A program made the position numbers and the translations under genes. Shown piece by piece: positions 2,897 to 28,998 of a stretch of 31,102 nucleotides of DNA. The stretch spans positions 1 to 31,102 of the IMG/VR virus record IMGVR_UViG_3300021376_000235; one strand, written 5' to 3'. Numbering within the stretch: position 1 is the first letter of the stretch; each line of letters begins with the position of its first letter. This stretch comes from a virus. The notes beneath the pieces are model-generated. The model did not search any database, was not told the origin of the DNA, and worked only from the letters and a program-made list of their open reading frames with translations.

Positions 2897-5800
2897 ATGA
2901 TAAAGACTGGATTTGAAACAAGAGTCAAGGTACAGCAGATTTTAGAAAGTCAGCTGCCAGAGTTTATTCTGGACGAAAATCCAAATTTTTCCGATTTCTT
3001 AAAGCAATATTATATATCACAAGAATACCAGAGTAGTGTAAGTGATCTTACCGAAAATATTGATCAATATATTAACGTTGATAACCTTGTCCCTGAGGTC
3101 TTTTATGACAACAGTTACCTAACCTCATCTGTTGGAATCTCTTCTCAGACGATTTATGTCAATACAACCAAGGGATATCCTGAAAAATATGGTTTAATCA
3201 AGATTGATAGTGAAATTATCACTTATACTGGTATAACTACGAACAGTTTTACTGGTTGTATTCGTGGTTTTAGCGGAATTACTTCTTACCATGCTGAAAA
3301 TAATCAAGAAGATCTTGTTTTTGAGCAGACAAGTGCAGAAAATCACACAAAAAATCAATATTTGTCCAATTTAAGTACTCTTTTTCTTAAAGAATTTTTT
3401 GAAAAAGTAAAGTATAAGTTAGTTCCAGGTCTAGAAGGAGTATCTTTTACCAAAAATTTGAACGTTGGCAACTTTATTAAGGAAGCCAGATCACTTTATG
3501 AGTCAAAAGGCACTAAAGAATCGTTTAGAATACTCTTTAATGTCCTCTATGGCATCACTCCTACTATTTTAGACCTAGAAAATTTACTTCTCAAGCCATC
3601 ATCTTCGGAATATATCAGAAGACAAGTACTTGTTACTGAGTTAATCTCTGGAAATCCAACAAATTTGATTGGACAAACTCTATATCAGGGGTATGGTAAT
3701 GATTTGGGCACTAAAGATGTAAACGACTTAGTACCAACTGCCAGTGGACCAATATCAGAAGTAGAAATTATATCAAGAAATAACAAAACATTCTATAAAA
3801 TTTCACTTTTTGTTGGATTTGAAGATCAAAGTCTAATCACAGGTAATTTTGTTGTAGCGGGAAAGACAAAAATCATTGGTGATGTTGGAATTGGGGTTAG
3901 TGTAATAACTGTAGACTCAACTATTGGATTTTTACCAGCTAATCAAGGTTATTTGGTTTGTAATGGGCAAAACATTTCGTACACAGAAAGAACAGTCAAC
4001 CAGTTTTTGGGTTGTACTGGAATAACAACGAGTATTTCTTCGACTACTAGTATTAGATCGGATCAAGTTGTTTATGGATTTGAAAATGGGGATAGAAATA
4101 AACTTGTTATCTTTAGAGTGAGTGGCGTATTATCAAATTTTGCATCGATTTCTAACATTTTAGATTTCCAAGAGAGAGATCCAATCTTTGTCAAAAACTT
4201 GGGAGAAAAAATTGAAGATCCAGAGACTGATATTTCATATAAAGAAAAGTTTTTTAACTCTCTAATCTACAATACATCCAGCAGATTACAGGTAAAATCT
4301 TTCTCTGGTTCAACCTTTGTTGTTTATGATAAAATCAATGATTCTTGGTTAAAATTTGGAGATTATGTCGATATACTTTTAAGAGGATCTGAAACTGTTG
4401 TTACATCAAATGCAACTGTTTCATCAGTTTCTGGAAACTCTATGGTTCTTAGTGGTGTAGGAGCACTAAATCAAAACCTAGAATATGATATTAGGAGAAA
4501 AATTAAAAAGGCTTCAAGTTCTGGAGTTGCTATTGAATATGGAAATGATCTAATATCATCAGATATTACAAATGCATATAATGAAAAAGATGAATATGCA
4601 TATATTGCATCAAACTCATTCCCATCACATCAAATATCTCTTAATTTAATATCTGCCCAGGTAGCATCAGCAACAACTGCCAGCGGAACACTACAAGACT
4701 ATGATGCATCAAAAGACGGATATTCGACTATTGCATTTACATCTAATGTTCCATTTTTAACTGGCGATGAAGTTTACTATCAACCAGTTGGATCTGCTAC
4801 AAGTATAAGTGGACTTCAATCTGGAAGATACTTTGTTCAGGTTGATACATCTTCTCCTAATAAAGTTAAACTTTACAAGTCAAGATCTTTTATTGATATT
4901 GGAGACTATCTAGTATTCAATCCCCAGAATGGTGCTCATAAGTTTTCTCTAGTTGATCAGAGAGATAAAAAACTAACGCCACAAAAAATACTAAGAAAGT
5001 TTCCATTAAGTCAACCTTCTCAAACTGGAGATGATATTCAAACCATATCTGGTGGAACTGGCATATTAGTTAATGGTACTGAAGTTATTAACTATAAATC
5101 AAATGATAAGATTTACTATGGACCACTTTCTAGTGTTTCGATATTAAATAGTGGAAATAACTATGACATTATTAATCCTCCTGTTATTTCAGTATCAAAA
5201 CCTGTAGTTTCTAGTGGCACAACAGCACTTATTCAACCTGTAGTAAGGGGATCCCTTGTAGATATTTCTATTGATCCTATTGATTTTGATATTGAAAAAG
5301 TTATTTCTGTAGAGATAACTGGTGGAAACGGTGCTGGAGCAGAAGTTCAAGCAATCTTGGAAAGAAGGTATAGAGAAGTTGAGTTTAATGCTAAACAAGA
5401 TTTTGAAGGTGGTGGAATAAATGTAACTAATGAAACTATAGTTTTCTTACAACGCCATAACTTTATCAGTGGTGAAAAGATTGTATACGATCCAAATGGA
5501 AATCAACCTCTAGGTATTGGTAGTTATCAAGGATCAAATACAAACCAAAATAGATCTCTTGTTTCTGGGGCAGTTTATTATGCAGGAGTTATTAACTCAT
5601 CTGCGATACAACTTTATGAAAGCCAATCTGATTATCTAAGTGGAATCAATACAGTTGGATTCACTACTACAAATACTCTTGGTATTCATAAGTTTAGAGT
5701 GTTTGATGGTAGAAATACGATTTCTTCACTTAAAGTAATAAATTCTGGATCTGGATATGAAAACAGAAAGGTTATCGCTTATCCATCTAACATATCAACA

Positions 5801-8800
5801 TCAGAAAATTATATACAATTCAATAATCATGGATATTCTAATGGAGACGTTGTTACATATTCAACAACGGGTACAGCGATTTCTGGACTATCAACATCTG
5901 ATCAGTATAAAGTCATTAGAGTTAATAGTGATGCATTTAGACTTTCCTATGCTGGAATTGGTGGAACAGTTACAGAAAACTACTTGAGAGGAGAATATGT
6001 TAAGTTTAAATCTAACGGATCTGGATTTCACATTTTTAACTATCCAGAAATAAATGTTAATGTTAACGTTTCTTTTGCAAGCACGATTGTAGGAGTTATT
6101 ACAGCGACTCCTAAGTTTAGAGGTTCGATTGTAGATGCATTCTTATATCAATCTGGTTCTGATTATGGATCAAATATTCTAAACTTCAATAAGAAACCTT
6201 TACTGACGGTTAAAAATGGAAAGAATGCTGAGTTTAAACCAATCATATTTGGTGGAAAAATTGTAAGGGTTCAAGTTCAGTCTGGAGGTAGTGAATATAC
6301 TGCTCCACCAGACTTGATAGTCAATAGTTTTAGTGGATCTGGTTGTAAACTCAGAGCAATAGTTTCCAATGGGTCCGTAACTAGTGTTGTTGTTTTAAAG
6401 ACAGGGATAAACTACAATATAGCAGACACAAATGTTATTGCATCTTCTCCTGGATCTGGGCTCATACTAGATGCTAAGATTAGAGATTTGACGATTAACT
6501 CTGCAATGAGATTTTCTGTGTGGGGAGGAGAAGTTTTACATAGAAATGATGATTTATTGCAATATGGAGTGCTTGCATATGGATCTAATACAAGAAATGA
6601 GTTTTTAGATATAGACAGTTCTAAGCACTCTCCAATCATTGGATGGGCATACGATGGAAATCCAATATATGGACCATATGGATATGCCGATCCTAAGAAT
6701 GTATCTTCATCAATCCAGATAGTCAAATCTTCATATTCTCCAAATGTAGCAATCGTTAAAAATAGACCATCTGGATTTACTGCTGGTTTCTTTGTGGAAG
6801 ACTATGAATATACTGGATCAAATGATCTAGATCAATATAATGGTAGATATTGCGTTACACCAGAGTTTCCTCAGGGGACTTATGCTTACTTTGCTTCATT
6901 ATCATTAAATATAATCACTGGTACATTAGATCCACAGTTCCCATATTTTATTGGCAATACTTATAGAAGTAATCCATTAGAAGAAAACTATGCATTCAAT
7001 AAGAAGTTAAGTCAAACAACGTTTGATTTCAACTCTTCAGAATTAATTAGAAATACATTCCCATATAATGTTAATGAAAAATATGCCGACAATGATTTCT
7101 TAATAGAATCCAATGAGATCATTCTACAAAAGTCTGTTGTTGAGTCAATAAAAGAAGGAGAGGTTTCGGATTTTGATATTATCAACTCAGGATCTGGATA
7201 CAAAGTCAATGATAACTTAATATTTGAAGAAGAAAATAGTGGTGGTTCTGGATTATCTGCAAAGGTTTCTAAAATTAAGGGTGGTAGAATAAGTAAGATT
7301 GAGACTACTATTGATCAATATGATAATGTTGTCTTTATTTGGGAGAATTCAAATACTATAACTGCTATAACAACATCATATCATAGTTTAACATCTGAAG
7401 ATGTTGTTGAAGTTACTGGATTATCAACACATGTTGCTAATCTAAATGGTATTCATCAAATAGGATTTACAACTTACAAAGCTTCTCTGATTAATGCAGT
7501 AGCGGCAAATGCTGTTCCAGGGGTTGTGCAAGACATTTATGTTTCTGATATTCCTGAAAATATTAGATCGCAGTCCAACATTGGTATTGGAACGGAAGTA
7601 CTAACAATCCTTGACATCTTTAGACCACAAAATCTTTTAAGAGTATCTCGTGGTATAGTTGGTTCTGCACATACAGAATCTACGACAGTATTCTACAAAC
7701 CAATAGAGTTTCAGATTCCTTTAAAAGGAAACTATTTTGACTCTTCAATAAACACAAAGAGATATTTTAACCCATTACAAACGGTTGGACTTGGAACAGC
7801 AGTTGGTATTGGAAGTACACTATCATATAGTGTTGGTGGAATAACAACCACAATTTCAGTATTAACGAAGTCGATTTATATTCCAAATCACCCATTCTAT
7901 GATAATCAACAAGTTATCTTTGGAAAAGATTCGTCCTCCTCATCTTTAGGAATTTCTACACTGACAGATGGATCGTATTTCAATCTACCATTGTCTGGTG
8001 ATACTCAAACAGTTTTTATTTCATCCAAATCAAAAGATACCATTGGGATAAGAACCACATTATTTTCCGATGATGTTTATTTCATAAATGCAGGATCAAA
8101 CTCAAACAGTTATTTTATTCGTTCAAATTTAACCGAAGTAACTGGAGTAGTTAAGAAGAATCAAGCAACTGTTTCTGTTGCTTCTTCACATTCATTAAAA
8201 AATGATGATCAGATTGATTTAATTATTAAACCAAATCTTTCGGTTGGAATAGGAACTTCAACTATAGTAAGAGTCCAGTTTAACTCAAGTATTGAAAAAC
8301 TATTGATCAATCCAATCGGATTTACTTCTACTTCAGTAGATAGTGTAAATGATAAAATCACTATCACAAATCACGGTTTTGTTAGTGGGGATAAGATTTT
8401 TTATAATTCGACAGATCAAATTATATCTGGACTAGAGACTGGCGGATACTTTGTATATAAAGTGGATGACAATAACTTCAAGTTATCATCAACATATATT
8501 GGTGCAACTGGAGACTCTCCAATATTTGTAAGTATTGCAAGCACTGGTGGATCTGGACATATTTTCTCTAAAATTAATCCCAGAATATCCGTAGTTAAAA
8601 ATAATGATCTTGTCTTTGACTTATCACATTCATCTTTAAGTGGATATAAGTTTAAACTTTTCTACGATAAAGAATATTATAATGAGTTTGTTTCCACTGG
8701 ATCTACTAATACTTTTACAGTATCTGGAGTTGGTACTGTTGGAGTATCAACAAATGCTAGACTAACAGTAGGATTCTCAACAAATATACCACAAAAAATA

Positions 8801-11800
8801 TATTATGCTGTTCAAAAATCTGGTTTTATTTCAACATCTGATGTTGAAGTTATTAATGATTCGGAAATACTATTTACCAATAGTTCTTATAATGGAACAT
8901 ATTCAATATCTGGAATAGGTAGTACAACATTTAATATAAATCTCCTAGAAAACCCAGAAAAAATTAAATATCTTCCAACAGAATGTGATGAAATCAGATA
9001 TACGACTTCATCTCTTACTGCTAATGGTGGAATAGAAGATATTAAAGTTGTATTTGGTGGAAGTGGATATACAAAATCGCCAATAGTTTCTTCTATAGAA
9101 ACTTCTTTTGGTAAAAATGCAGAAGTTTATGCAAAATCTGATAATATTGGTCAAATCAACAGAGTAAGAATTATCAATCAAGGTTTTGAATATTCTTCAG
9201 ACAAAACTCTTAGACCCAAAGCAGATGTTCCTTCGATTCTTAATCTAAAATCTGCAAATGCTCTAGATTCTGTTATTGTTGTATTTGGTGGAGGTAGATA
9301 TAACTTTGCACCATCTTTAACACTAGTGAATACTCAAACTGGTTTGGCTGTCCCATCAGTTGCTATTGAACCAGTGATGGCGGTCAATACCATCAAATCA
9401 GTTAATGTAATTGCTTCTGGTGGTGGTCTTGTTGGCACTTCGTATACAGTCTTCGCAGAAAACAATGACAATGGAATCAGAATTCAAACTGTAGAATCTT
9501 CAAGATCTGGAGTCATTACTTGCTACATCGACACTCCTACTCTTGGTTTTACAACTGCCTACGTACAACCTGGGGATAAGATTTTTGTTGAAGGAATTGT
9601 GAACTATGCATCTGGATCTGGATTTAACTCCAAAGATAATGGATATAACTTCTTCGATGTTATTTCTTATAATGATACTGTAAATCCAGTAAAACTATCA
9701 TACTCAGTTGCAGATTATACAACTGATGCTGGATTAGCTAAGACTACGCAACTTGCAACTGCTTCTCTTGTAAAACAATCTCTATACCCAAGATTTAATA
9801 CGACACAAAAGAAAAATAGTTTCTTTGTTGGTGAGGACTTACTAGTAAGTACAGAGCAAAATCCATCAGTATTTGCAGAAAGTGATTTACAAGTATTAGT
9901 TGTTTCTGAAGACTTTATCAAAGTCAAAGGAGACTATAATATTAAACAAAACTTTAATATTAAAGGAGTTTTATCTGGAAGTATTGCTCAGATCAATAGA
10001 GTAACTAAGTTCAATGCACGATTTGAAACTGGAGCAACGCTTTCCTTTGAAAATGGTTGGATAACAAATACTGGAAAACTGAATGAAGACACTCAGGTAA
10101 TACCAGATAATGATTATTACCAAAACCTTTCTTACACAATAAAGAGTCCATTAGAATATAAAACTATTGTAACTCCTGTCAATAGAATGGTCCATCCTGC
10201 AGGTCTTAAGAACTTTGCAGACCTTCAGGTTCAAAAAAGCACAAATGTTTCAGTAGCAAATACGAATATTTCCTCACAAACTATAGTTATTGATGTTGTA
10301 AATGAAAATAGAGTAGATACAATCAATACTTATGATTTAAGTATTGATATTGATGTAGAAAATAATGCTTCAAAATATGTTCAACTAAAGAATAGAAAAG
10401 TATCCGATTATATTGAGTGTAGAACTAATAGAGTTCTTGAGATTGATGATATTAGTAATTTGTTTAGAAATAAAGATCTTGTAGAAATACTTCATAAAGA
10501 TCTTCAACCCTATCCAACAAATATAGACTATTCTAGATTCTTAGTTCAGATAACAAATGATGATTTGACTCAGATTCAAACTAACGAAATTGTTGTTGGT
10601 ATTGATGCTAACAAAAATACATATACCTTTGAAAAGGGTAGTGTTTACAATACAAACAGTGCTATAGCTGAGATTAATGCAAGATATGATGATCTTTCTT
10701 TCTTAGCTAATCTGAGAGTTGAACCAACTGATCCTTATAATCAGAACTATAATATTAAAGTATTCAGAAACTACTTTACATCTGCATCTAGTGGAATAGG
10801 AAGTACATCTGTTGGATTTGTAAACATTACAGGATTCTCTACAGGAATATCTTCAAGCACGACTTCTGTAGTAACATCTGTACCTATCTCAAGTTTTAAT
10901 ACGATCTTCGGTACAGTACAAATCATTGATAATACAAACTCTCAGGTTGATTACTCTGAGGTTATTCTTACTCATGATGGCGTAAACTCTTACGTTTCAG
11001 AATATTCATTTAACTCAAATGAGACTATTGATAGTCTTTCAAAATCCTTTATAGGTACATTCGGATCTAATCTGAACAGTGGTGTTTTATCTTTAACTTA
11101 TAAGAATAATAGATCAAATAATGTAGTTCTAAAAGCAAGAATCATTGGATTTGGATCGACAGCGATAGGAATTGGAACATATAGATTTAAATCAACTGGA
11201 CAATCTGATGATTCTGAAAGATCTGCACGTTTAGAATCTCACTATTCTGTTGGTACTGGAAAAACCACTGTTATTGCAGTTGATAAAGAAAAGATATCAA
11301 CTGTAAAATCTATTGTTAATGTTAGTGTTGGATCAACGACTGCAGTTCACCAAGTTCTACTAACAAATAGTAATGTTTTAACCTCCGCAAATATTACAGA
11401 ACTTCCATTCGTTTCTGTAGGAAATACAACAGGACTAGGAACTTTTGGAGCATCATACTCTGGATCAAATGTTGTACTTGAGTTTTATCCAATCGCATCC
11501 TTGGGTGGAAACTACACCATTAAATCATATAATGAACTATTGTATACATTGAATGATAATATAAATCTACCTGATGATTTGTTGTACGGAAATACTTTCG
11601 AAAATCTAATCTTAGATAGGTATCTTGGATATAATCTTGATGAGATTAATCGCGTTGATTTTGATCTATCTTACAATGGTACTCCTATTTTTATAAAAAC
11701 ATTTGATCCATCAAACATCACTGTTCTGAATAAAGAAACTGGTGTATTTACAATCGCTAATCACTTCTTTAATACTGGAGAAGAACTTAACTATCTTCCA

Positions 11801-14878: not shown

Positions 14879-14884
14879 ACTTAG

Positions 14885-14913: not shown

Positions 14914-16482
14914 ATGTCTGCAATTGTAACTGACCAGTTCAGAATTCTTAATGCCGAAAATTTTGTCAACTCGGTTGAGAATTCCAATAACTCTTATTAT
15001 ATTTTCCTGAGTCTACCACAATCATCTTCCCCAACCGTTGGGTTTGGTAGGAGTTCTGATTGGGATACTAACAGTGCTGGACCTCCATCCCCAATAGATA
15101 ACCAAAACTATGTCAATCATGTGTATGACACAATGATTTTTGGTAAAAAAGTTACTGCAAATAATGTAAAGAGGATTGTTAGAAGGGTTGATTGGGCACA
15201 AGGAACAACTTATGAAATGTATAGGCATGATTATAGTGCTTTTTATCCATCTGCAATCACATCATCTTCAAGACTTTATGATGCGAACTATTATGTGATG
15301 AACAGTGAGTTCAAAGTTTACATTTGCCTAGATAACGGATCATCAGGATTAAATCCAACAGGAAATGCATCTCAAGATGAGCCAACATTTACAGACTTAG
15401 AACCATCTAGAGCTGGTGAAAGTGGAGATGGTTACGTTTGGAAGTATCTGTATACCATTGATCCAAACGATATTATCAAGTTTGATTCTGTAGAATATAT
15501 TCCCGTCCCTAGTAACTGGCAATCATCAGTAAATCCACAGATACAATCAATCAGAGAAAATGGTGATTCCAGTGTGAATGAAAATCAGATAAAAATCGTA
15601 TATATTGATCGTCAAGGATTTGGATATGGTATTGGTTTAAGTCAGGAAGTTAATATTCTTGGTGATGGTAGTGGAGGAAAAGTTGTATTAACTACTGATA
15701 ACAGTGGTCGTATTACATCAGCACAAGTATCTTCTGGTGGTAAAGACTATAGTTACGGTATGGTTGATTTAGGTGCGATTAACCAAAGCACCATTAGTTC
15801 TTTTGCAAAACTAATTCCAATCATTCCACCATCAAGGGGTCATGGATTTGATATTTACAAAGAACTAGGATCTGATAGAGTTCTTCTTTACGCCAGATTT
15901 GATGATTCTACTAAAGATTTCCCAATAGATACCAAATTTGCACAGATTGGAATAATCAAAAATCCAACCTCGATAGGATCAACTTCACTCTTTACTGAAA
16001 ATCAGTTTTCCTCTGTTTATTCATTAAAAGTAAAAAACGTAAGTGGAACTATTGCAATAGGAGATAAGATTAAACAAACTGTTGGTTTGACAACTGCTTT
16101 TGGTTATGTTGCATCATACGATGATGAAACTAATGTTCTTAAGTATTATAGAGATAGATCGCTCCAGTTCAATCAAACTGTTGGGGATCAAACAGATTAT
16201 GTTGGTATTTCTTCTAATGGATATGTTGTAAACTTTACAGCATCTAATAATTCAGTGACAAATGCAAGTGGTTCTTTTCAGGCATCGATTGATACAAACT
16301 TTACTGGTATTACTACTGTTATATCTGGAAGATCAGTAAATCTTGGCGTTCAGTTCAATAGTGGACTTGCAAATCCAGAGATAAATAAAAGATCGGGAGA
16401 GATCATTTATTTAGATAATAGACCAACAGTGTCTAGAAACTCCAGACAGAAAGAGGACATTAAAGTAATTTTGGAATTCTAA
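14914..16482 (+). CDS. 8: Baseplate wedge subunit gp8 with internal extension
   Basis: gp8 is a dimeric wedge protein that binds gp7, gp10 and gp6 in T4. Visible blocks that match marine T4-like gp8 are FVNSVENSNNSYYIFLSLPQ (residues 17-36), NVKRIVRRVDWAQGTTYEMY, the MNSEFKVYICLDNG block, and GDGYVWKYLYTIDPNDIIKF near 175-190. At 522 residues it is clearly longer than T4 gp8 (334). Part of the extra length is a pair of G-x-G-Y type units (QGFGY ending at Tyr238 and SGGKDY ending at Tyr279, 41 residues apart), the same module seen in the giant protein and gp14. Its own late promoter precedes it, and the DUF4815 gene starts one base after its stop. Confidence 0.88.
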   Translation: MSAIVTDQFRILNAENFVNSVENSNNSYYIFLSLPQSSSPTVGFGRSSDWDTNSAGPPSPIDNQNYVNHVYDTMIFGKKVTANNVKRIVRRVDWAQGTTYEMYRHDYSAFYPSAITSSSRLYDANYYVMNSEFKVYICLDNGSSGLNPTGNASQDEPTFTDLEPSRAGESGDGYVWKYLYTIDPNDIIKFDSVEYIPVPSNWQSSVNPQIQSIRENGDSSVNENQIKIVYIDRQGFGYGIGLSQEVNILGDGSGGKVVLTTDNSGRITSAQVSSGGKDYSYGMVDLGAINQSTISSFAKLIPIIPPSRGHGFDIYKELGSDRVLLYARFDDSTKDFPIDTKFAQIGIIKNPTSIGSTSLFTENQFSSVYSLKVKNVSGTIAIGDKIKQTVGLTTAFGYVASYDDETNVLKYYRDRSLQFNQTVGDQTDYVGISSNGYVVNFTASNNSVTNASGSFQASIDTNFTGITTVISGRSVNLGVQFNSGLANPEINKRSGEIIYLDNRPTVSRNSRQKEDIKVILEF

Positions 16483-16483
16483 A

Positions 16484-19400
16484 ATGCCGCAAAAAACGAA
16501 TCTCAACATAAATCCATATTATGACGACTACAATCCAAATAGTAGTTTTTATAAGGTTTTATTTAAACCAGGATTTCCGATTCAAGCTAGAGAGCTAACG
16601 ACTCTACAATCCATACTTCAAAATCAAGTTGAGAGTTTCGGTAGTCACATTTTCAAGGAAGGATCTATGGTCATTCCTGGAAATGTTACTTATGATGGTC
16701 AATATTATGCGGTTCAGTTAAATACTGCACATCTTGGTGTAGATGTTTCTCTTTATGCTGATAAGTTAGTTGGAAAAGTAATAAGAGGACAAACCTCTGG
16801 AGTTTCTGCTGTTGTGTTACCAGCAGGAAGAAATGATACTACAATAAAAGGATATCTTTCAGAAACAGAATCAGATACTGGAAATCTAACCATCTATGTA
16901 AACTATATTGATAGTGATGGTAATGGGGAATATTCAACTTTCTTAAACAATGAAGTCTTAATAGTCCAAGAAAATGTAACTTTTGGAGCAACAACAATTG
17001 CTGCTGGAGATACAATCGCAAGTTTGATTAGTGAAAATGCAACTTCGATTGGTTCTGCAGCTTCTGTAGGAGAAGGTGTATATTTTATTAGAGGATCTTT
17101 TGTTAGAGTTTCTCCTCAAACAATCATTCTAGACCAATTTGATTCTTTCCCAACATATAGAGTTGGTCTCAATATTAATGAGGAGATTATTTCTGCTGGA
17201 GATATTGGTGGTGAGTCTCTTTATGATAATGCAAGAGGTTTTTCTAACTATGCAGCACCTGGTGCAGATAGATTAAAAATAACAACTACACTTATAAAGA
17301 AATCTATCGATGATTTCAATGATACAAACTTTGTAGAGATTCTTAGAGTTCAAAATGGTGATATTAAGATCATCAAAACTCAAACAGAGTATAATATTCT
17401 AAGAAATTATTTTGCACAAAGAACTTATGATGAATCTGGAGATTATTCAGTAATACCTTTTGAAGTTTCTGTAAATAACTCTCTAAACGATCGTCTTGGT
17501 AATGGTGGATTATTCTTCTCAAATCAAAAGACCGATGAAGGAAATGATCCAGATGATGGATTAATGTGTGTTAAAGTTTCTCCAGGAAAAGCATACGTAA
17601 GAGGATTTGACATTGAAAAACTGGGAACCACGATTATTGATACACCTAAACCAAGAGATACTAAAACCGTAGATAACTCATTAGTTTCTTTTGGTAGAGG
17701 TAATCTTTTAAGAGTTAATAATACTTCTGGATCTCCAGTAATTTCAATCAATACAAATAATATCATTTATCTGCAGAATCAGAGAAAATCCTCTTTTACA
17801 CAATCATCTGGTGCTGGAACGACTATTGGTAGTGCAAGGGTTTATTCTTTCGGTGTTACTAATGCTGGATTTACAACTTTCTCAACGTCTTGGGATTTAT
17901 ATCTCTATGATATACAGACATACAGTAAAATAGAACTGAATACGCCAGTAAACAGCTATGAAGTACCAGAAACATCTTTGGTAAGAGGTCAAAGTAGTAA
18001 TGCTAGTGGATACGTTGTCAATTCTGTAGGAATTGGATCTTCAACTATTACACTATATCAAACTTCTGGTCAGTTTATGATTGGAGAAAAGTTATCCTTT
18101 AACGGAACGAATGAAGTATCAAGATCAGTAAAAAAAATCGTTGATTATGGAATCCAAGACATAAAATCGGTTTATCAAGATACTAGCACATTTTCTGGTT
18201 TTTCTGCGGTTGCAGATTTTTCTGCCGACTTGGTTCTTGATAGAAAACTCGCATCAGGATTTAATATTACAGATCAGATAACTATCAATAATGCAGGCAT
18301 TGTTACTTCTAATGGAAGAAACTTTGTAGGTATTAAGAGTGATGCGATCATTAGATATCAAACTAGTGGTGCGGTAGGATTTTCAACAGAAACATTTAAT
18401 AGAGTAGTATCAGTATCTCCAGATGGATTATCTATGACTGTTGCTGCGGTTAATTCTGTATCTGGAGTTTGTTCTGGTTCTTTACCATTGACAAACGTAA
18501 CGTCAACATTCTCTCTTGGCGTACCATCTATTGGAAATGCAAATCAGTCTGGATTATATGCACCAGCTGACGCAAGAAACCTAGTAACTGTTGATTTAAC
18601 TGGATCAAATATTTCAATTATAAGGCAGATTACTGGCCTCAGTGTATCTGCAACTGGCGAATTAGTCGTTACAACTGCTGCTATTACCGATTTAACAAAC
18701 ATTGTTTTTGAAGTATTTGATGAAAGTAGATATACAATCACATATTCTGATGGAGCTATTGAGCCACTTACCGAAGATAAGTTTACATTGTCTTCTAACG
18801 GAACTCAAATTACTTTTAATGGTCTAAGAGCAAGTCAGTCTAATGTAGTTCTTTCAGCAACTATTAAAAAATATTCGGTTCAAAATAAAGTAAAAAATTA
18901 TATTAGAAGTGAAAAACTTATAATCAACAAGTCAAAGTACACTTATTCTGGTATTGGCACAAATAATAACGATGGACTAACTTATAACAAGTTTTATGGA
19001 TTGAGAGTTCATGACGAAGAGATCTCACTAAATGTCCCTGATGTAGTTAAATTGGTTGCAGTTTATCAATCACTGAATACTAGTGCTCCAACATTTGACA
19101 AACTCAACTTCGAAACTGGTCTAAATCTAGATAATGCATCTATTATTGGGGAGTATATTTTAGGAGCAGTTAGTGGAGCAATAGCTCAGCTTGTAACAAG
19201 ATCATCATCTACCCAGATCGAAATTGTTTACGTAAACTCCGAATCATTCATAATCGGTGAAAAAGTAAGATTCCAAGAGTCTGGTATTCTCGGCACGATT
19301 CAATCACTGACAAAAGGAAACTTTATTAATATTACAAACAAATATACTTTAGATAAAGGGCAAAAAGATCAATACTATGACTATTCTAGAATAGTTAGAA

Positions 19401-22400
19401 CTCCTGGTGCAACAGAACCATCAAGAACTTTAACGATAGTCTATGATAAGTATCAAGTACCTTCCAATGATACTGGAGACATTTATACTGTTGCATCATA
19501 TGCTAACGAAAGATTTGCTAATGATATTCCATCTGTATCAAATAATTTGAGAATCAGCGATACTTTAGACTTTAGACCAAAAGTATCAGACTTTGCATTA
19601 ACAACAAGATCTCCATTTGCATTTGATAGCAGAAACTTCTCTTCTGCTGGAACAAATCCAACGGTTGTTATGGCACCAAATGAAAGTTCTATCATTGGAT
19701 ATTCTTATTATTTACCAAGAATTGATAAGGTAGTTTTAGGAAAAAATGGACAGTTTTCTGTTATCAAGGGAGTATCTTCGGATAATCCAAAACCACCTCT
19801 GAACGTAGAGGAGGCAATGGATATTGCCACAATTAACCTTCCAGCATTTTTATATTCGCCATCTGATGCAAAGATTTCTCTAATTGATAATAGAAGATAT
19901 ACAATGAGAGACATTGGCGATCTTGATACAAGAATCACCAACTTAGAAACGGTCACCACACTTTCTCTTCTAGAAGTAGACACTAAAACACTTCAAATAC
20001 AAGATGCTGACGGATTAAGTAGATTTAAATCTGGTTTCTTTGTCGATAACTTTAGAAATAGAGATTTACTCGATCAGTCAAACTTTGATCTAAAATGTGA
20101 CATCGATCCAGTAAACAATCAGATGGTATCACCAAATATTGTAAATACCATTAAAACTCAGATTGCTTTTGCATCAACAGTTGCTGAGTCTGTAATTGAT
20201 CTATCATCAAATTCTCCACTCTTAGATTCAAATGTTAGAAAGACTGGACCTATTGTTACACTAAACTATCAAGAGGAAGAATGGATTGGACAACCACTTG
20301 CATCTAGAGTTGAAAATATAAACCCATTCTCAGTTGTAAGTTGGGTTGGTTCGGTAAAACTCAATCCAGCTGTTGATAATTGGGTTAGAACTATTCAGTT
20401 GGAGGGTGGAACAAGCACAAGATTTACTGGAATAGGTGGTGCTAGTGGAGCACAGACAACAAATACTCTGGTGAGTTCCGTTTCAGAACAGTTTATGCGT
20501 TCAAGAAACGTAGAATTTATTGTTAACAACTTAAAACCATATACAAGATATTATGGATTCCTAGATGGAAATGGTGGACTTGATTATGTACCAAAACTAC
20601 TTGAAGTTGGGATGACAAATGGATCTCCAGCATTCCAAACTGGAGAAACAGTTACTGGATCAATAACAGCTCAAGATGGTACAAACGTAAGATTAATAAG
20701 ATTTAGAGTTGCTGCTCCAAATCACAAAACTGGTGCATACAATAACTCAGTTCTTGTATATAACGCAAATCCATACGATAAAAATGTTGCTATAACAACT
20801 GCATATACTGCATCATCAACACTACTGAACGTTGATACATTCTCACTATCAGAGGAAGCACAAGGACAATATAGTGGTTACGTTGTTATTGGAACAACAT
20901 TAAAGGGTGAAACAAGTGGAGCACAAGCTACTGTATCAAACATCAGATTGACAACTGATAACTTTGGCGATATCCATGGAACATTCTTTATTAGAGATCC
21001 TTTAGCATCTCCACCTCCAGCTGTTAGGATTGAAACTGGAAACAAAACATTTAGAATAACTTCAAGTTCTACAAATAAAACCCCATTACCAGGAAGTCTA
21101 CTGATAAGTTCTGGAGAAACAAGTTATACATCTACTGGCATCGTTAACACCTTCATTAGATCTACGGTCATTCTTTTGCCATATGATCCACTGGCACAAT
21201 CGTTTACGGTAGATGGTGATGGTGCATTTGTATCTTCTGTCGATCTTTATCTGGCAAACAAGGATGATTCTCTTCCACTCACGATTGAACTGAGACCAGT
21301 TGAACTTGGAACTCCTACTGGAAGACTTGTATCCGATCTGGCAACAGTAACTGTTCAACCAAATCAAATAAATGTATCTGACAATGCAAATGCAGTAACA
21401 AATGTCAAGTTCAAAGCACCAATTTTCTTAGAACCAAATAAAGAATATGCAATCGTTCTCCGTTCTGATAGTGATCAGTATGAAGCCTGGATTGCAAGAA
21501 TGGGTGAAAAGACGATTGAAGGTCAGATTCTGCCAAATGTTCAGGGTGTTGTTGTTTCCCAACAATTTGCAATGGGAAGTTTGTTTAAATCACAAAATGG
21601 TACAATATGGACTGCCAGCCAGTATGATGATTTGAAGTTTAAGTTATATAGATGTGCCTTTACATCCTCGGCTGGAAGTGCATATTTCTACAATCCAAAT
21701 CTGGATGAAACTAATGCATATCTTCCAAAGTTAAACTCAAATCCAATCAGAACTCTTCCAAGAAAAGTTAAAGTTGGCATTACTTCCTCGATAAGTTTGA
21801 ATACAACTCTTACAATTGGAACAAAAGTATCTGCATCAAATGCAATAACTGGAATAATTGAATCGGTTGGTGGAAGTATTAAACCTATAACGGGTATTAC
21901 AACAACTAATCCTGGATATGGATATTCAAGTGGAACATACACAAATGTTTCTCTTTATCCAATCTTAAGTTCTGGAAGTGGTGCAACTGCTACAGTTTCA
22001 TTCCATAATAGTGGCATTACTACTGTTTCTATTGCTAATACTGGAAATGGATATTCTGTTGGAGATGTACTCGGAGTCACAACTGCACATGTATCTAGAG
22101 GATTTGGTGCAAGAATCTCGGTAAGAGAAACTGCAAATATTGATACTCTATTCTTGACTAACGTTACTGGAGAAAAGTTCATTTCTGGACAAAACGTGCT
22201 TTATTATGACTCGTCCAATACTCTTATCTCTTTGGGTGCAACTGCAACATACAGAGGAGATTCTGCCTTAACCAATAACACTTTTGCAGGAAATGTTTTT
22301 GAAATAAATGACTATAATCATGGCATGTCTGCGGACAATAATGTGATTAAAATCACAGGTGTTGAACCAAATGTAACTCCAACAACACTTTCTTCGGCAC

Positions 22401-23611: not shown

Positions 23612-23814
23612 TGAAAGTTGATGGACATAAAAATCTCTATCGAGATGAAAATAGTGGAGCAATTGTAAATACTGATACAAGTGCATATAATGAATATTGT
23701 AAACTAAGAGAGAGAAAACGAAAAGAAAAAACTGAAATAGATTTATTGAAAAATGAAATAAGCGAAATTAAGTCCCTCCTCTACCAACTACTACAAAAAA
23801 ATGGATCCATCTGA
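23608..23814 (+). CDS. Conserved small cyanophage protein with C-terminal coiled coil (68 aa)
   Basis: The function is unknown. The N-terminal half carries VDGHKNLYRDENSGAIVNTD, a block I recognise as strongly conserved among T4-like cyanophages. The second half is a charged helix (KLRERKRKEKTEIDLLKNEI) with Leu/Ile heptad spacing, so it probably forms a coiled coil. The first ATG overlaps the previous stop by 4 bases (ATGA); a second ATG at 23611 would give a start that fits the usual MKVDG N-terminus. It is coupled to the DUF4815 gene and overlaps the next small gene by 14 bases. It could be a minor baseplate component or an assembly factor. Confidence 0.8.
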   Translation: MMKVDGHKNLYRDENSGAIVNTDTSAYNEYCKLRERKRKEKTEIDLLKNEISEIKSLLYQLLQKNGSI

Positions 23815-23980
23815 AATAGAACTTGAGAACTTTACCAAATCCTTTGAGTATGAAAAACTATCAAGAGAAATAGATTCTTGCAATGATATAGAATATCTAA
23901 AAAATATTGCTAAATCATATATTAAATTATTTTTTAAACAGCAAGAAAATCTTACAGCATTACTAAGTGATACTAGGTAA
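23801..23980 (+). CDS. Conserved small helical phage protein (59 aa)
   Basis: A 60-codon frame begins at ATG 23801, inside the end of the 68-aa gene (14-base overlap, different frame), and stops with TAA at 23978-23980. It reads MDPSEIELENFTKSFEYEKL and continues with a helical segment containing EIDSCNDIEYLKNIAKSYIK. The 'FEYEKLSREID.C.DIE.L...A' pattern resembles small conserved proteins at this place in cyanophage genomes. Amphipathic helices are expected; there is no membrane segment. The role is unknown. It ends 8 bases before the late promoter at 23989, so it is probably the last gene of the gp8 transcript. Confidence 0.7.
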   Translation: MDPSEIELENFTKSFEYEKLSREIDSCNDIEYLKNIAKSYIKLFFKQQENLTALLSDTR

Positions 23981-23988
23981 AGGTAAAA

Positions 23989-23996
23989 TATAAATA
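23989..23996 (+). promoter_or_regulatory. T4-type late promoter TATAAATA upstream of the fibre/neck block
   Basis: An exact TATAAATA box lies in the 38-base gap before the 115-aa gene and ends 22 bases ahead of its ATG (24019). The start region (GTGTTTAAATG) has no clear Shine-Dalgarno. It probably drives the 115-, 76-, 546- and 82-aa genes and onward through gp13-gp16, since no other late box was noticed in the short gaps downstream. Confidence 0.72.
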
Positions 23997-24018
23997 AAGA
24001 TAGGTACTGAGTGTTTAA

Positions 24019-24366
24019 ATGGCAGCAGTATATGTTTCAAATCTTGTCATTAATGGTGGCACGGATTTTACACAAACATTTACTTTAGAAAGTAGCAATT
24101 CTAGTTCTGGTTTCAATCTAACTGGATACCGAGTAGATGCTTTAATGCGTAAACATTCTGGTAGTAGTGCTTCTACAGTATTTGCTACTTCAATACCGAA
24201 TGCTGTTGGTGGAAGTGTCCAAATATCTTTGGGTTCTTCCATAACATCTTCATTAAAACCTGGTAGATATGTTTACGATGTTGTTGTTGCAAGCAACAAC
24301 GGAAGCGGAACAAAAACAAGAGTTATTGAAGGAATGGCATTAGTTAGAGAGGGAGTAACAAGGTAA
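24019..24366 (+). CDS. Small conserved virion-associated beta protein (115 aa)
   Basis: The sequence is almost entirely beta-strand-like, with an immunoglobulin-type feel: VSNLVINGGTDFTQTFTLES at the start, LTGYRVDALMRKHSGSS in the middle, and SLKPGRYVYDVVVAS followed by RVIEGMALVREGVTR at the end. This pattern is conserved in small cyanophage structural proteins, and similar short beta proteins sit next to tail fibre genes in many myophages. It is the first gene after the late promoter at 23989 and overlaps the next start by one base (TAATG). It is probably a minor baseplate or fibre-attachment protein; no exact role is known to me. Confidence 0.72.
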   Translation: MAAVYVSNLVINGGTDFTQTFTLESSNSSSGFNLTGYRVDALMRKHSGSSASTVFATSIPNAVGGSVQISLGSSITSSLKPGRYVYDVVVASNNGSGTKTRVIEGMALVREGVTR

Positions 24367-24596
24367 TGGCAGACATTCGAGTTAGAGTAGGGCAGCAAAA
24401 CGCCATTAAAGTAGTTTCATCACTTGGTGGTGCTGGAGGTGCTGGTAATTTGGGTGGTCTGAATGATGTTAGTATTAACAATCCACAAACAGGAATGATT
24501 ATGGTTTATAATGCATCGACTGCTAAGTGGGAAGGAACAATGGAGTTGACACCAGGAACAACTCAAAATTTAGACATCAACGGAGGTAACTTCTAA
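24366..24596 (+). CDS. Small fibre-associated structural protein (76 aa)
   Basis: It begins MADIRVRVGQQNAIKVVSS, followed by a Gly/Ala-rich stretch (GGAGGAGNLGG), then LNDVSINNPQTGMIMVYNAS and TAKWEG. The 'L.DVSI..P..G..L.Y....KW' pattern is common in phage tail fibre repeats. The end, DINGGNF, resembles the end of the next protein (LDGGTF). It is coupled on both sides by 1-base overlaps (TAATG). It is likely a short fibre or baseplate adaptor made with the 546-aa protein. The assignment rests on pattern and neighbours only. Confidence 0.7.
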   Translation: MADIRVRVGQQNAIKVVSSLGGAGGAGNLGGLNDVSINNPQTGMIMVYNASTAKWEGTMELTPGTTQNLDINGGNF

Positions 24597-26236
24597 TGGC
24601 AAGTATCATCAGGGTCAAAAGATCTAGTGGTACTAATATACCAGGATCCCTACAGTGGGGTGAATTGGCATATGTTACAGGTATTGGTAGCTATGGTGGT
24701 GTAAACCAATATAAGGACCGTATCTTTATTGGTGATGATGGATCAAACGTCCTCTCAGTTGGTGGACGCTATTATACCTCCATGTTGGATCACCAACCTG
24801 GATCTGTTCAAGGAGTTGTCAACAGTAGGAACTCTGATGGTGGCATTGTTGCCATCATGGACAATAATAGAAAGGTTGATCAATGGAACGTTGATAACCT
24901 TCGTTTGGACGGAAACGTTTTCTCTAGTGAAAACGTAAACGGAGATATAATCCTTTCTCCAAATGGGACTGGAAATTTTATATTCACTGGTGGGGCTTCT
25001 CAACAGTTAAAGATTAATGATGGAGTAGTAGATAGATTTACAGTAGATTCTATTACTGGATCTAATAGAGTAAATCAAGGAACACTTACTGCAAACGCAC
25101 CAACGCTTGATGTTGGGGTAACTTGGAATAACGCTGGAGTTGCATTTACTGGCGTTTGTTATCATGTAACTAATACAGCATCAGCTGCAAGTTCAAAGGT
25201 TTTTGATATTAAAATCGGTGGCAATACTGTTTTTGCAGTTAACATTGATGGATCTACAACATCCTCTGGAATCATAACCGCTGGTGACATAACAGTTTTC
25301 AATACAATCACTGGTAATAACATTACTTCACAAAATGTTAGTATCAATAACTCACTTAATGTTACTGGTCTTTCAACTTTTGTTGGAACTATTCAGCACA
25401 CTGGAAACTTTATCAATCTTGGCGGAGCTTCATTCGATAATATTGGTATTTCTTCAAATACCATTTCAACAAAATCTGGATCTGGAAATGTATTGTTTAT
25501 TGACCCATTTCCCGATGGTAAAAGTAATGAAGGCACTGTAGTTATTAAGGGTGACTTACAAGTAGATGGTACTACAGTTACAGTTAACTCAACAAACGCA
25601 ACTGTTAACGACCCAATCATTAAACTTGGAGATGTTACAACTGAAAGAGTTGTAATTTCTAATGCTGTTGCTGGGGTTAGCACCATCAGATTAGATTCTA
25701 TTATTGGTTTGAATCAAAATGATGTAGTTTCTGGATCAACAAATCTTTCTCCTTCTGGACTTTCAACGATTACTGCAATTGATACTAGTAATAAGATTAT
25801 TACAATCAATGATACTGTTCAATCTGGAGGAATTTCTACAACAACCAGATTAACGATCACAACTGGATACGACACTAACACGGATCGTGGTGTTGCTTTC
25901 AGTTATAACACTGGTGTTGGTGGAACTGGTGGTAACAAACTAGGATTTTATGGATATGATGATAGTACTGGATATTGGACATTTATTCCAACCGCAACAA
26001 ACACCAGTAATGTAATATCTGGAGTAAAGGGTACTCTTGATGTTGGTGCAATCTATCTTGACTGGGCAGTCTCTGGTATACATACTAGAGGATCTCTCTA
26101 TTTTGATTCACAAGGAAAAATCATTAGCACAAACTCACCAGAAACTGGATATGCTAGCACATCAAACTTTGTTTTAACAACAAATGCAAGCAATGTTCCA
26201 GTTTGGACTGATACCTTAGACGGAGGAACTTTCTAA
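24596..26236 (+). CDS. Tail fibre-like virion structural protein (546 aa)
   Basis: The N-terminus MASIIRVKRSSGTNIPGSLQ with WGELAYVTG and RIFIGDDGSNVLSVGGRYY is the opening of a family of cyanophage and pelagiphage structural proteins. Next come VDNLRLDGNVFSSENVNGDI and LSPNGTG (residues about 99-125), repeat-like strands typical of fibres. The middle has beta repeats rich in Thr, Ser and Asn. Residues about 320-345 have LQVDGTTVTVNSTNATVNDP, then DRGVAFSYNT, and KLGFYGYDDSTGYWTFIPTA near 450-470. There is no obvious C-terminal chaperone domain. It ends in LDGGTF. It is likely a trimeric fibre or baseplate-attached spike. It may set host contact, but which receptor it meets cannot be seen. 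Confidence 0.78.
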   Translation: MASIIRVKRSSGTNIPGSLQWGELAYVTGIGSYGGVNQYKDRIFIGDDGSNVLSVGGRYYTSMLDHQPGSVQGVVNSRNSDGGIVAIMDNNRKVDQWNVDNLRLDGNVFSSENVNGDIILSPNGTGNFIFTGGASQQLKINDGVVDRFTVDSITGSNRVNQGTLTANAPTLDVGVTWNNAGVAFTGVCYHVTNTASAASSKVFDIKIGGNTVFAVNIDGSTTSSGIITAGDITVFNTITGNNITSQNVSINNSLNVTGLSTFVGTIQHTGNFINLGGASFDNIGISSNTISTKSGSGNVLFIDPFPDGKSNEGTVVIKGDLQVDGTTVTVNSTNATVNDPIIKLGDVTTERVVISNAVAGVSTIRLDSIIGLNQNDVVSGSTNLSPSGLSTITAIDTSNKIITINDTVQSGGISTTTRLTITTGYDTNTDRGVAFSYNTGVGGTGGNKLGFYGYDDSTGYWTFIPTATNTSNVISGVKGTLDVGAIYLDWAVSGIHTRGSLYFDSQGKIISTNSPETGYASTSNFVLTTNASNVPVWTDTLDGGTF

Positions 26237-26237
26237 T

Positions 26238-26486
26238 ATGAATAGTGAAATTGATGTGAATATTTTGATATCGATTTATAATGAAAAAATAAATTCATTA
26301 ACATCGAGCAATCTTTTATTGGAAGCAAGACTCAAGTCTATAGTGCAAGAGTTTTCGAAAGAAAAAAATACTTTATTAATGGCAAATCTTGACATTCAAA
26401 AAGAACTCGATTTACTAAAGAATACTAATAAATCTAGCGGAAAAGAATCTAGAGTAAAAACTTTAGGAGATTTAGGAGAAGAATAA
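26238..26486 (+). CDS. Small coiled-coil protein between fibre gene and gp13 (82 aa)
   Basis: No family is recognised. Residues 10-65 form a charged helix with Leu/Ile at heptad positions (LLLEARLKSIVQEFSKEKNT, then DIQKELDLLKN), so a coiled coil is likely. The tail is Lys/Ser rich (KSSGKESRVKTLGDLGEE). The start at 26238 is supported by GGAGGA about 9 bases upstream, which lies in the end of the fibre gene. It overlaps gp13 by one base (TAATG). Its position suits an assembly helper or a small virion part, but this is not shown. Confidence 0.7.
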   Translation: MNSEIDVNILISIYNEKINSLTSSNLLLEARLKSIVQEFSKEKNTLLMANLDIQKELDLLKNTNKSSGKESRVKTLGDLGEE

Positions 26487-27328
26487 TGGCACAACCTAGC
26501 ACTAGGCAACAACTGATAGATTACTGTTTGAGAAAACTTGGTGCTCCAGTGCTGGAGATTAACGTAGATGAGGATCAAATAGATGATTTAGTTGATGATG
26601 CTATTCAATACTTTCAAGAAAGACATTTTGATGGTGTTGAAAGAATGTATCTCAAATACAAAATTTCTCAGAGTGATATTGATCGTGGAACAGCAAAAAA
26701 TACAAATGGAGTAGGAATAGTAACAACAACTGGATCTTCTAGTATAACTGGTTATGGAACTACAACATTTAACTTCTACGAAACTTCAAATTATATTCAA
26801 GTTCCAGATACTGTAATAGGTATTGAAAGAATATTTCGATTTGATTCAAGTTCAATATCTTCTGGAATGTTTAGTATCAAATATCAGTTATTCTTGAATG
26901 ATTTATATTATTTTAACTCAGTTGAACTTCTCCAATATAATATGACAAAAAGTTATTTAGAAGATATTGATTACTTACTTACAACGGACAAACAAATAAG
27001 ATTTAATAAAAGACAAAATAGATTATATCTCGATATAGATTGGGGATCTCAAGCTAAAAATACGTATTTTATAATAGATTGTTACAGGGCTTTAGATCCA
27101 ACATCTTTTAGTAAAGTATTCAACGATAGTTTTCTTAAGAAATATTTGACTTCTCTTATTAAGAGGCAGTGGGGTCAAAATATGATTAAGTTTAGGGGAG
27201 TAAAACTTCCTGGTGGTATTGAACTGAACGGAAGAGAAATATACGAAGATGCTGAGAGAGAACTACAAGCATTGAAGCAAACAATGGCACTTGAACACGA
27301 ACTCCCTCCTTACGACTTTATTGGATAA
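26486..27328 (+). CDS. 13: Neck (head completion) protein gp13
   Basis: gp13 binds the portal vertex after DNA packaging and, with gp14, makes the neck that receives the tail. At 280 residues it is near T4 gp13 (309). Visible blocks are RQQLIDYCLRKLGAPVLEIN and DDLVDDAIQYFQERHFDGVE at residues 8-52, a central beta region, and the typical C-terminal block SLIKRQWGQNMIKF followed by VKLPGGIELNGREIYEDAER near 228-262. A short Gly/Thr/Ser-rich loop (residues about 73-91, VGIVTTTGSSSITGYGTTT) looks like a small insertion. A Shine-Dalgarno-like GGAGAAG precedes the start. Its stop overlaps the gp14 start by one base. Confidence 0.93.
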   Translation: MAQPSTRQQLIDYCLRKLGAPVLEINVDEDQIDDLVDDAIQYFQERHFDGVERMYLKYKISQSDIDRGTAKNTNGVGIVTTTGSSSITGYGTTTFNFYETSNYIQVPDTVIGIERIFRFDSSSISSGMFSIKYQLFLNDLYYFNSVELLQYNMTKSYLEDIDYLLTTDKQIRFNKRQNRLYLDIDWGSQAKNTYFIIDCYRALDPTSFSKVFNDSFLKKYLTSLIKRQWGQNMIKFRGVKLPGGIELNGREIYEDAERELQALKQTMALEHELPPYDFIG

Positions 27329-28998
27329 TGGCATTAAATCCCTTTTTCTTACAAGGTTCTCAAGGAGAACAAAGACTCGTTCAGGATCTTATCAATGAAC
27401 AGTTAAGGATTTTTGGTGTTGAAGTTGCATATATTCCAAGAAAAGTAATAGCAGAACAAAAGTTATATGGAACTAGCGACATATCAATCGACCTAAGAGA
27501 AATACAGTTTTCAAAATTTGATGATAACTTCTTAATAGAAGCATACGTCAATACTTATGAAGGTTATAGCGGAGCTGGAGATATCCTAACAAAATTTGGA
27601 ATGTCTTTAAGAGATGAATTGACTATCACAATTTCAAAAGAAAGATTTGAAGATTTTATTTCACCATTTTTAGAGGTATTGCCAGATGCAGAAGTTGACC
27701 CAGATGCTATTTCAAGACCAAGGGAAGGAGATTTAGTATATTTTCCTCTTGGACAAAGACTTTTTGAAGTGAAATTTGTTGAGCATGAAGATCCATTCTA
27801 TCAACTTGGAAAAGGATATGTTTATGAACTGAAATGCGAACTGTATGAATATGAGGATGAAATTGTTGACACATCAGTTGATGAAATTGATCGTGTTCTG
27901 GACGAAGAAGGTTATATTACAACATTGTCCCTCATAGGAGTTGGTGAAACTGCCACAATATCAGCAAATGCAACCAATGGTGGATATGTAAGGAGATTGT
28001 TCCTTAATAATGATGGATCTGGATATACTAGCGTCCCAACAGTATCATTTACAGCATCTCCAACAAATAACAATGCTACTGCCGTAGCAATAACAACAAA
28101 TCGTGGTGGTGTTTATTCTATATCGGAAATATTGATGACCAACGTTGGTTCAGGATATACTGTACCACCAAACATAACCATATCTGGTGGTAAAGGAGTT
28201 GGTGCTGCAGCAACTTGTAGTATTGAAAAAAATTACATTGGAGTTGCAAATATTGCAATCACTGATTCGGGTGAAGGATATCCAACTATTCCTAGAGTAT
28301 TTGTTGAACGCCCAACTGGAACTGCAGCTCAAGCAACTTCTTCTATTAATAATGGATCAGTTGGAATAGTAACGATAACTAATGGAGGAACTTTTTATAA
28401 TCCAAATAAAACTATTGTAGTAAACTTCTCTGCACCATCTGGTGTAGGTTCTACCGCAACTGGACATGCAGTAGTTGGGTCCGCTGGAACAATAACCTCA
28501 GTTGTTGTATCTTTTGCAGGAACTGGTTATACTTCTCCACCAACTATAAGTATTGGAAGTAGTTTTAGTGATAAAGTGGGATTAAATACTGCTGTTCTAA
28601 AGGCACAAATAAATTCATTTAATAGAATTTCTGCCGTAAGAATCGTAGACCCTGGCAATGGATATACTGGTGTTATAACTGCATGGGTAGCAAACCCTCC
28701 TAGAATATCTGGAGTTGGAACTTATCTCTTTAATGAAGAAGTCATTGGCGAACAATCTAGAGTCTCTGCAAGAGTCAAGAATTGGGATGTCGATACTAGA
28801 GTTCTTAAGGTTGGCATAAATACTGGAGTATTTTACAAGGGAGAAGAAGTCGTTGGTGCAGCTTCTTCTGCAAGATATGTGGTTTCAACTTATGAGACCG
28901 AAGATATATACGACCCATACGCACAAAATGATCAGATAGAAACTATCGCAGATCAAATATTAGATTTTTCTGAGTCAAATCCATTTGGTAGTTATTAA
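27328..28998 (+). CDS. 14: Neck protein gp14 with a six-copy repeat insertion
   Basis: gp14 joins gp13 in the neck of T4-like virions. Residues 1-190 match the family: MALNPFFLQGSQGEQRLVQD, EVAYIPRKVIAEQKLYGTSD, TKFGMSLRDELTITISKERF, then GDLVYFPLGQRLFEVKFVEH. The protein is 556 residues against 256 in T4. The extra length is an internal array of six G-x-G-Y-like units (starts at residues 230, 274, 315, 354, 398 and 443). The gp14 tail resumes after it with GTYLFNEEVIGEQSRVSARV and ends in QILDFSESNPFGSY, as expected of gp14. The core is therefore intact and the repeats are an insert. It is coupled to gp13 and gp15 by 1-base overlaps. Confidence 0.92.
   Translation: MALNPFFLQGSQGEQRLVQDLINEQLRIFGVEVAYIPRKVIAEQKLYGTSDISIDLREIQFSKFDDNFLIEAYVNTYEGYSGAGDILTKFGMSLRDELTITISKERFEDFISPFLEVLPDAEVDPDAISRPREGDLVYFPLGQRLFEVKFVEHEDPFYQLGKGYVYELKCELYEYEDEIVDTSVDEIDRVLDEEGYITTLSLIGVGETATISANATNGGYVRRLFLNNDGSGYTSVPTVSFTASPTNNNATAVAITTNRGGVYSISEILMTNVGSGYTVPPNITISGGKGVGAAATCSIEKNYIGVANIAITDSGEGYPTIPRVFVERPTGTAAQATSSINNGSVGIVTITNGGTFYNPNKTIVVNFSAPSGVGSTATGHAVVGSAGTITSVVVSFAGTGYTSPPTISIGSSFSDKVGLNTAVLKAQINSFNRISAVRIVDPGNGYTGVITAWVANPPRISGVGTYLFNEEVIGEQSRVSARVKNWDVDTRVLKVGINTGVFYKGEEVVGAASSARYVVSTYETEDIYDPYAQNDQIETIADQILDFSESNPFGSY
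27970..28700 (+). repeat. Six G-x-G-Y protein repeats (39-45 residue period) inside gp14
   Basis: The units begin GSGYTSVP, GSGYTVPP, GEGYPTIP, GTFYNPNK, GTGYTSPP and GNGYTGVI, spaced 44, 41, 39, 44 and 45 residues apart. Between them are Gly/Ala/Thr-rich strands such as GVGAAAT and GSVGIVTITN. The copies differ in sequence, so this is an old protein repeat rather than a recent DNA duplication. A beta-solenoid or stacked beta-sandwich fold is plausible but unproven. Confidence 0.8.

Follow-up and report, generated by a model that had tools for sequence, protein, structure and literature searches.

Two described systems come closest to the element considered here. Domain I of the T4 tail sheath protein gp18 is a six-stranded barrel with a helix, inserted in domain II and protruding; it takes no part in subunit contacts, and its reported binding partners are the baseplate and, when retracted, the long tail fibres (PMC3004832). 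The substitutions G106S, S175F, and A178V in gp18 inhibit fibre retraction (PMC3004832). Promiscuous surface domains are also already known in the immunoglobulin-like (Ig-like) domains (PMC8718954, PMC9230969), whose presence on phage virion proteins is credited in PMC8718954 to Fraser et al. 2006. The element analyzed here is a module with the motif G-x-G-Y, which recurs in four proteins encoded by IMG/VR virus record IMGVR_UViG_3300021376_000235. The whole 31,102-nucleotide stretch of this single 31.1-kb record, referred to as the window, holds structural genes of a T4-like marine phage. The four proteins are a 3993-residue baseplate wedge protein (the giant protein), gp8, a 2375-residue DUF4815 protein, and gp14, and profile comparisons show their modules to be homologous at the level of sequence.

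Homology of the module across four virion proteins

When alignments made separately for each protein were compared by hhalign, the gp14 module matched giant residues 3725–3860 at P98 (expectation value (E) 5e-14) and giant residues 1070–1225 at P97. The latter segment was also matched by gp8 (P96, E 2e-9) and by the DUF4815 protein (P95), which matched each other at P94, while gp14 matched the DUF4815 protein at P85 and gp8 at P66. With the same profiles, six other segments of the window reached at most P15, and column-permuted copies at most P1.1. A hidden Markov model (HMM) of two successive repeats, built on pairs taken from both bacterial and viral loci and referred to as the pair HMM, located the copies as follows.

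27976..28230, + strand: gp14 pair 1, residues 217–301, copies 1 and 2; pair HMM 69 bits; AlphaFold2 predicted local distance difference test (pLDDT) > 90
28234..28476, + strand: gp14 pair 2, residues 303–383, copies 3 and 4 (copy 4 a degenerate GGTFY); pair HMM 51 bits; AlphaFold2 model
28483..28731, + strand: gp14 pair 3, residues 386–468, copies 5 and 6; pair HMM 47 bits; AlphaFold2 model
15583..15813, + strand: gp8 pair, residues 224–300; hhalign P96 to the giant 1070 segment; pair HMM 11.8 bits; AlphaFold2 strand order
21881..22138, + strand: DUF4815 pair, residues 1800–1885; pair HMM 25 bits; hhalign P95 to the giant 1070 segment
5111..5374, + strand: giant pair, residues 739–826, second half degenerate; pair HMM 15 bits; hhalign P99 to the 1070 segment
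5711..6235, + strand: giant split pair, halves 939–962 and 1056–1113 (G1087), with other sequence at about 963–1055; weak pair HMM hit at 939–962 (6.2 bits), split read by eye
6245..6490, + strand: giant pair, residues 1117–1198, motifs 1131 and 1170; pair HMM 45 bits
7154..7306, + strand: giant partial pair, residues 1420–1470, motif 1432; pair HMM 14 bits
9017..9478, + strand: giant tandem pairs, residues 2041–2115 and 2118–2194; pair HMM 32 and 5 bits; hhalign P98 to the 3725 segment
12770..13105, + strand: giant pair or pairs, residues 3292–3403; pair HMM 16 bits; hhalign P99.5 to the 3725 segment
14105..14386, + strand: giant pair, residues 3737–3830, motifs 3751 and 3797; pair HMM 42 bits

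The top score among 650 shuffled proteins was 9.9 bits. All four proteins exceed this control with the one pair HMM, gp8 most narrowly (11.8 versus 9.9 bits); the membership of gp8 is weak by HMM alone, and secure by profile-profile comparison. A profile HMM trained on only the six copies of gp14 proved too narrow and did not find the copies in the other proteins.

The original prediction had proposed a spreading module common to virion proteins of different ancestry, and had named low-complexity composition as the alternative. The former is upheld by the hhalign and pair HMM results, which stand above their controls. The module does have a skewed composition (G 18%, T 16%, A 12%), but a mere Gly/Ser/Thr/Tyr bias in place of homology is extremely improbable: neither the column-permuted alignments nor the shuffled proteins yield a match, which rules this alternative out, and the gp14 array is confidently folded by AlphaFold2.

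PHROG profiles of other carriers match the gp14 array. These profiles match each other and the array because the module is included in them; the families concerned (phrog_701, 708, 2885, 5342, 19630, 460, 438, and 1922) are whole-protein carrier families, none of which is named for the module. No family covering the module was found in Pfam or NCBIfam, the Ig-like Pfam families (Big_1, Big_2, FN3) included; matches to PF25670 (E 0.09) and PGRS (E 4.3) are at chance level. A sequence search of the PDB with the module profile gave only bL21 (E 0.19) and FlgG (E 5), neither significant, and a search of plasmids gave no module match.

The pair of repeats and its predicted structure

The motifs lie where the original prediction placed them: in the giant protein at G1087, about 1131 (where it reads G-G-S-E-Y), G1170, G3751, and G3797, in gp8 at Y238 and Y279, and in the DUF4815 protein at Y1814 and Y1857. 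The six copies it gave for gp14 consist of five G-x-G-Y motifs (at about 230, 274, 315, 398, and 443) and a degenerate G-G-T-F-Y near 353. To these are added giant-protein copies at about 753, 951, 1432, 2055–2194, and 3305–3403. What did not hold is the choice of the 39–46-residue repeat as the unit, since the evolving unit is a pair of repeats of about 80 residues.

The evidence for the pair comes largely from copy numbers, counted at low thresholds. Arrays of two or more copies are even in 116 cases and odd in 15 in bacterial loci (binomial p 8e-21), and even in 122 and odd in 26 in viral loci (p 2e-16); for arrays of three or more, p is 5e-6 (bacterial) and 0.016 (viral), all four values being uncorrected for relatedness. 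With one array taken per carrier cluster, there are 56 even arrays, 5 odd arrays of three or more, and 7 single copies. Single-copy counts reflect in part missed partners, because 120 of the 199 isolated viral units lie under a longer pair match. Copy numbers in the gp14 relatives are 0, 2, 4, 6, or 8, apart from a few counts of 5 or 7 where a degenerate copy falls below threshold.

In the window's giant protein, parity rests partly on reading by eye. By this reading, a pair begun at 951 and split by another insert has 1087 as its second half, and 1131 and 1170 form the next pair. A third recurring stretch, H-x-F-x-x-G-D ... G-L ... G-x-H-x-F, was noticed by eye at giant residues about 963–1055 (window 5783–6061) and at several other places in the same protein; it appears to be nested inside one G-x-G-Y pair.

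AlphaFold2 models cover two of the four proteins, gp14 and gp8. The gp14 array has pLDDT mostly above 90, and both models have three strands per half in the same order: a long strand A, the G-x-G-Y turn, a short strand B, and a long strand C. The possibility of unrelated folds, raised in the original prediction, was thus checked on these two models, and the strand order agreed. The plan of the domain is two similar halves, each with strand A, the G-x-G-Y turn, strand B, a Gly-rich turn, and an Ala-rich strand C. Mean-field covariation over 519 pairs (effective number 377) supports antiparallel B–C and C1–A2 hairpins; correlations at a spacing of 39 may reflect the resemblance between copies.

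That the arrays are instead continuous beta-solenoids of single 39–46-residue coils, rather than strings of two-half barrels, is quite unlikely. It would account for the equal spacing of copies within and between pairs (39.2 and 39.0) and for the close likeness in sequence of odd and even copies, but not readily for the even copy numbers, the many isolated pairs, or the insertions of exactly two copies.

The gp14 array sits inside a small barrel made of residues about 197–216 and 470–525, and structural matches of the eIF2-gamma/EF-Tu type concern this surrounding barrel, not the module; the same structural comparison listed no known fold for the gp14 array. The barrel, which carries G-E-x-[IV]-x-G motifs, is a second shared element: it is seen in gp14 at residues 462–530 (window 28711–28917) and in the DUF4815 protein at residues 870–975 (window 19091–19408), and also at about window 17936–18163. 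By hhalign, the gp14 barrel, into which the G-x-G-Y array is inserted, matches the two DUF4815 segments at P95 and P91, and unrelated window segments are unmatched. The gp14 model also has a structural match in a giant-virus protein (BFVD A0A3G5AH46, Sylvanvirus; Foldseek E 1.7e-5, 21% identity).

Insertion, loss, and the probable relation to gp18 domain I

Whole pairs are inserted in loops of otherwise alignable proteins that have empty-site relatives, namely gp14, the tail tube protein, gp15, gp6, and the sheath. For gp14, no copies are present in S-SM1, S-CAM1, and T2 (S-SM1 and S-CAM1 having a bare small barrel at the array site), two in S-RIM2 and S-CAM4, four in S-SRM01 and B23, six in the window, and eight in S-CAM9. 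A tree of the gp14 N-domain requires 13 or more changes of copy number; its branches are modestly supported, and some are long. Lambda-like tail tube proteins of Pseudomonas have either exactly one pair or a bare loop at the same place; gp15 and gp6 of one relative carry one pair each, and those of the window carry none; marine T4-like sheaths have 0, 2, or 4 copies. The frequent gain and loss between related phages expected in the original prediction is therefore seen in these gp14 changes and in the empty-site relatives of gp14, gp15, gp6, and the tail tube protein. The gp8 pair of the window sits in a region where T4 gp8 is about 200 residues shorter; T4 gp8 aligns to the window protein over residues 3–201 and 487–522 only.

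Further carriers are a gp53-like wedge protein, a podoviral nozzle protein, an amidase-like protein, a DUF2589 protein, and, in bacteria, lipoprotein-, pilin-, and multicopper-oxidase-like proteins. The carriers thus span at least gp6, gp8, gp14, gp15, the gp53-like protein, the sheath, the lambda-like tail tube protein, the podoviral nozzle protein, the DUF4815 protein, and bacterial proteins. With phylum names taken from the seed locus, the domain occurs in 29 of 195 sampled genomes of the phylum of the Verrucomicrobia seed, in 9 of 247 for the Bacteroidetes seed, and in 9 of 201 for the Chloroflexi seed. One tail tube protein (L350) runs on, past its G-x-G-Y pair, into what looks like a tail assembly protein; either recombination inside the module has fused the two, or this is an artefact of assembly.

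The original prediction knew no name for the module. Here it appears to have a described relative, as the module is probably remotely related to T4 gp18 domain I, most likely by common ancestry. In all 31 dereplicated T4-type sheaths, the best match of the pair HMM over the whole protein falls within domain I, which makes up 14% of the length. These matches have low scores (up to 12 bits) and are mostly in register with the first motif of domain I; their placement is not random. Domain I of T2 gp18 reads IEYTISTPGSNYAVGDKITVKY...GKITEVDADGKIKKINI...GSNWTAEISSSSSGLAAVITL, that is, A-GxNY-B-C followed by A-GxNW-B-C, and natural variants lie nearer to the module, with GQGYTVGD in two sheath loci (L553 and L557) and GGPGSGQAATATV in a third (L567). 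The residue types at G106, S175, and A178 all agree with T2 under an apparent one-residue offset due to the initiator Met, and by this offset G106 is the first Gly of G-S-N-Y.

Marine sheaths have canonical G-x-G-Y pairs (two or four copies) at the domain I site, between the N-terminal part of domain III and domain II, a comparison of insertion sites that is not applicable to gp8, gp14, and the DUF4815 protein. By hhalign, domain I matches gp8, the DUF4815 protein, and two giant modules at P24–36, in register for gp8, and the controls (other sheath domains and permuted columns) reach at most 1.4. The model of gp8 residues 226–305 superposes on residues 98–187 of the KP1 sheath with Z 5.7 (2.9 Å over 75 residues). 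The likeness to domain I (PF22639) consequently comprises a size of about 90 residues, the inserted state, two G-x-[GN]-[YW] halves, the order of elements by profile, the insertion site in sheaths, and the weak structural match of the gp8 pair. In contrast, gp18 domain I, previously known in sheaths, includes a helix, and its second half is degenerate, whereas the modules of the window lie beyond the reach of the Pfam model, have both halves canonical, occur in tandem, and are found in many other proteins.

Taken as a whole, the best explanation, which is considered probable, is an approximately 80-residue two-half domain that is mobile as a pair, is a remote relative of gp18 domain I, and serves as a docking knob. 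Several results weigh against it. The hhalign matches to domain I reach only P1–36, those of the gp14 array and of broad module alignments being P1–6, and a Z of 5.7 is too low to be distinctive among common folds. The curated Pfam model PF22639, which T2 gp18 itself matches with 137.6 bits, has no match in the window segments (E up to 10) or in the record, nor in L463-type sheath records. Because this Gp18_dom_I model misses the window copies, the module is called a probable remote relative rather than a member of PF22639. The helix that precedes the second motif of gp18 domain I is absent from the modules, with no such helix or insertion seen. A Foldseek search of the PDB gave no match for the gp14 array, only the cores of the carriers being found, and covariation on triples (effective number about 130) is too noisy to distinguish a closed pair, in which C2 returns to A1, from a solenoid.

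The cores of gp8 and gp14 in the window match T4-type proteins (PF09215 and PF11649), and their models compare with T4 gp8 at Z 16.5 and with T4 gp14 at Z up to 9.8. Judged by gp8 and gp14, the closest annotated relatives are Synechococcus phages, e.g., S-SRM01, Sf-CH5, and ACG-2014f, and those whose taxonomy was checked belong to Kyanoviridae. Besides the four carriers, the window encodes gp25, gp6, two small tail-related genes, gp13, gp15, and gp16. The giant protein belongs to phrog_2885 and contains a YHYH domain (PF14240, E 4e-28) at residues 1237–1341 (window 6605–6919), a domain predicted as a metal-dependent hydrolase (PMC7824862). The DUF4815 protein has at residues 1573–1712 (window 21200–21619) a weak match to a PHR domain (E 1e-4), slightly below the Pfam cut-off. 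In Synechococcus phage S-SRM01, gp14 and gp15 are separated by a gene for an HNH endonuclease (L313:2430-2957). In another locus (L592), the first reading frame of 453 residues is terminase-like, and a stretch ending in NGIETHNC resembles the end of an intein.

Function and meaning of the module

The module is best read as a promiscuous surface-docking or adhesion domain with a presumably exposed position. Pairs enter loops of virion proteins as complete units, are multiplied in tandem as whole pairs, and are lost again. Each pair may form a self-contained barrel with neighbouring ends, so that a loop could take it up with the carrier left undisturbed. The pair would give the virion an extra outward knob for low-affinity docking, the target being either the phage's own appendages, as reported for gp18 domain I, or the host surface. 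If the module shares the use of gp18 domain I, it would be a docking knob.

Among the 519 aligned pairs, the turn Gly, the Tyr, the Pro, and the core hydrophobic residues are conserved, and no polar, charged, or Trp position is. A conserved sugar site is made less likely by this, whereas weak binding of a variable kind is not. It bears on the reading of the pair as a decoration that binds host surfaces or glycans like phage Ig-like domains, with weak sugar binding at its outer faces, a reading that is somewhat less probable than not. The carriers of the tail tube, sheath, baseplate, and neck are indeed places where Ig-like domains are found too (PMC8718954, PMC9230969), and the module is also present in bacterial lipoprotein- and pilin-like proteins; in addition to the lack of a conserved polar, charged, or Trp position, however, the neck is distant from the host surface. 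It is unlikely that the pairs are structural spacers or clamps, locking adjacent virion proteins to each other or making the neck and baseplate stiffer. The module is present in four structural proteins of the same virion, and its Ala/Gly/Thr-rich strands could pack together; but close relatives have no module or other copy numbers, and assembly is hence independent of it, and gp18 domain I has no contacts between subunits (PMC3004832).

Like the Ig-like domains (Big_1, Big_2, FN3), the module is a promiscuous beta domain, probably exposed, that occurs on tails and other virion proteins and also in bacterial proteins, and is gained and lost among unrelated phages. It differs from them in its sequence, its two-half repeat, its even-numbered tandem arrays, and its insertion in internal loops. 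A literature search, from which subscription papers were largely absent, found no description of the module, of the even-number rule, or of the spread over neck, baseplate, tube, and sheath.

The results give a testable identity to a very common and unannotated part of marine T4-like virion proteins, and the presence of the module explains the cross-matching of whole-protein families in annotation. Natural pairs of proteins with and without the module, such as gp14 of S-RIM2 and S-SM1 or the Pseudomonas tail tubes, are available for direct tests of function. The chances appear about even that there is a previously unnamed superfamily of two-half barrels, in which gp18 domain I is one specialized member; that whole pairs circulate by an even-number rule in bacterial proteins and in nine or more kinds of virion protein; and that they act as knobs of general use, to which tail fibres, whiskers, or host surfaces can dock. 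An interchangeable surface part, previously unnamed, appears to be common to virions. The results also suggest that what is known classically from T4 is the tip of a family that is large and mobile.

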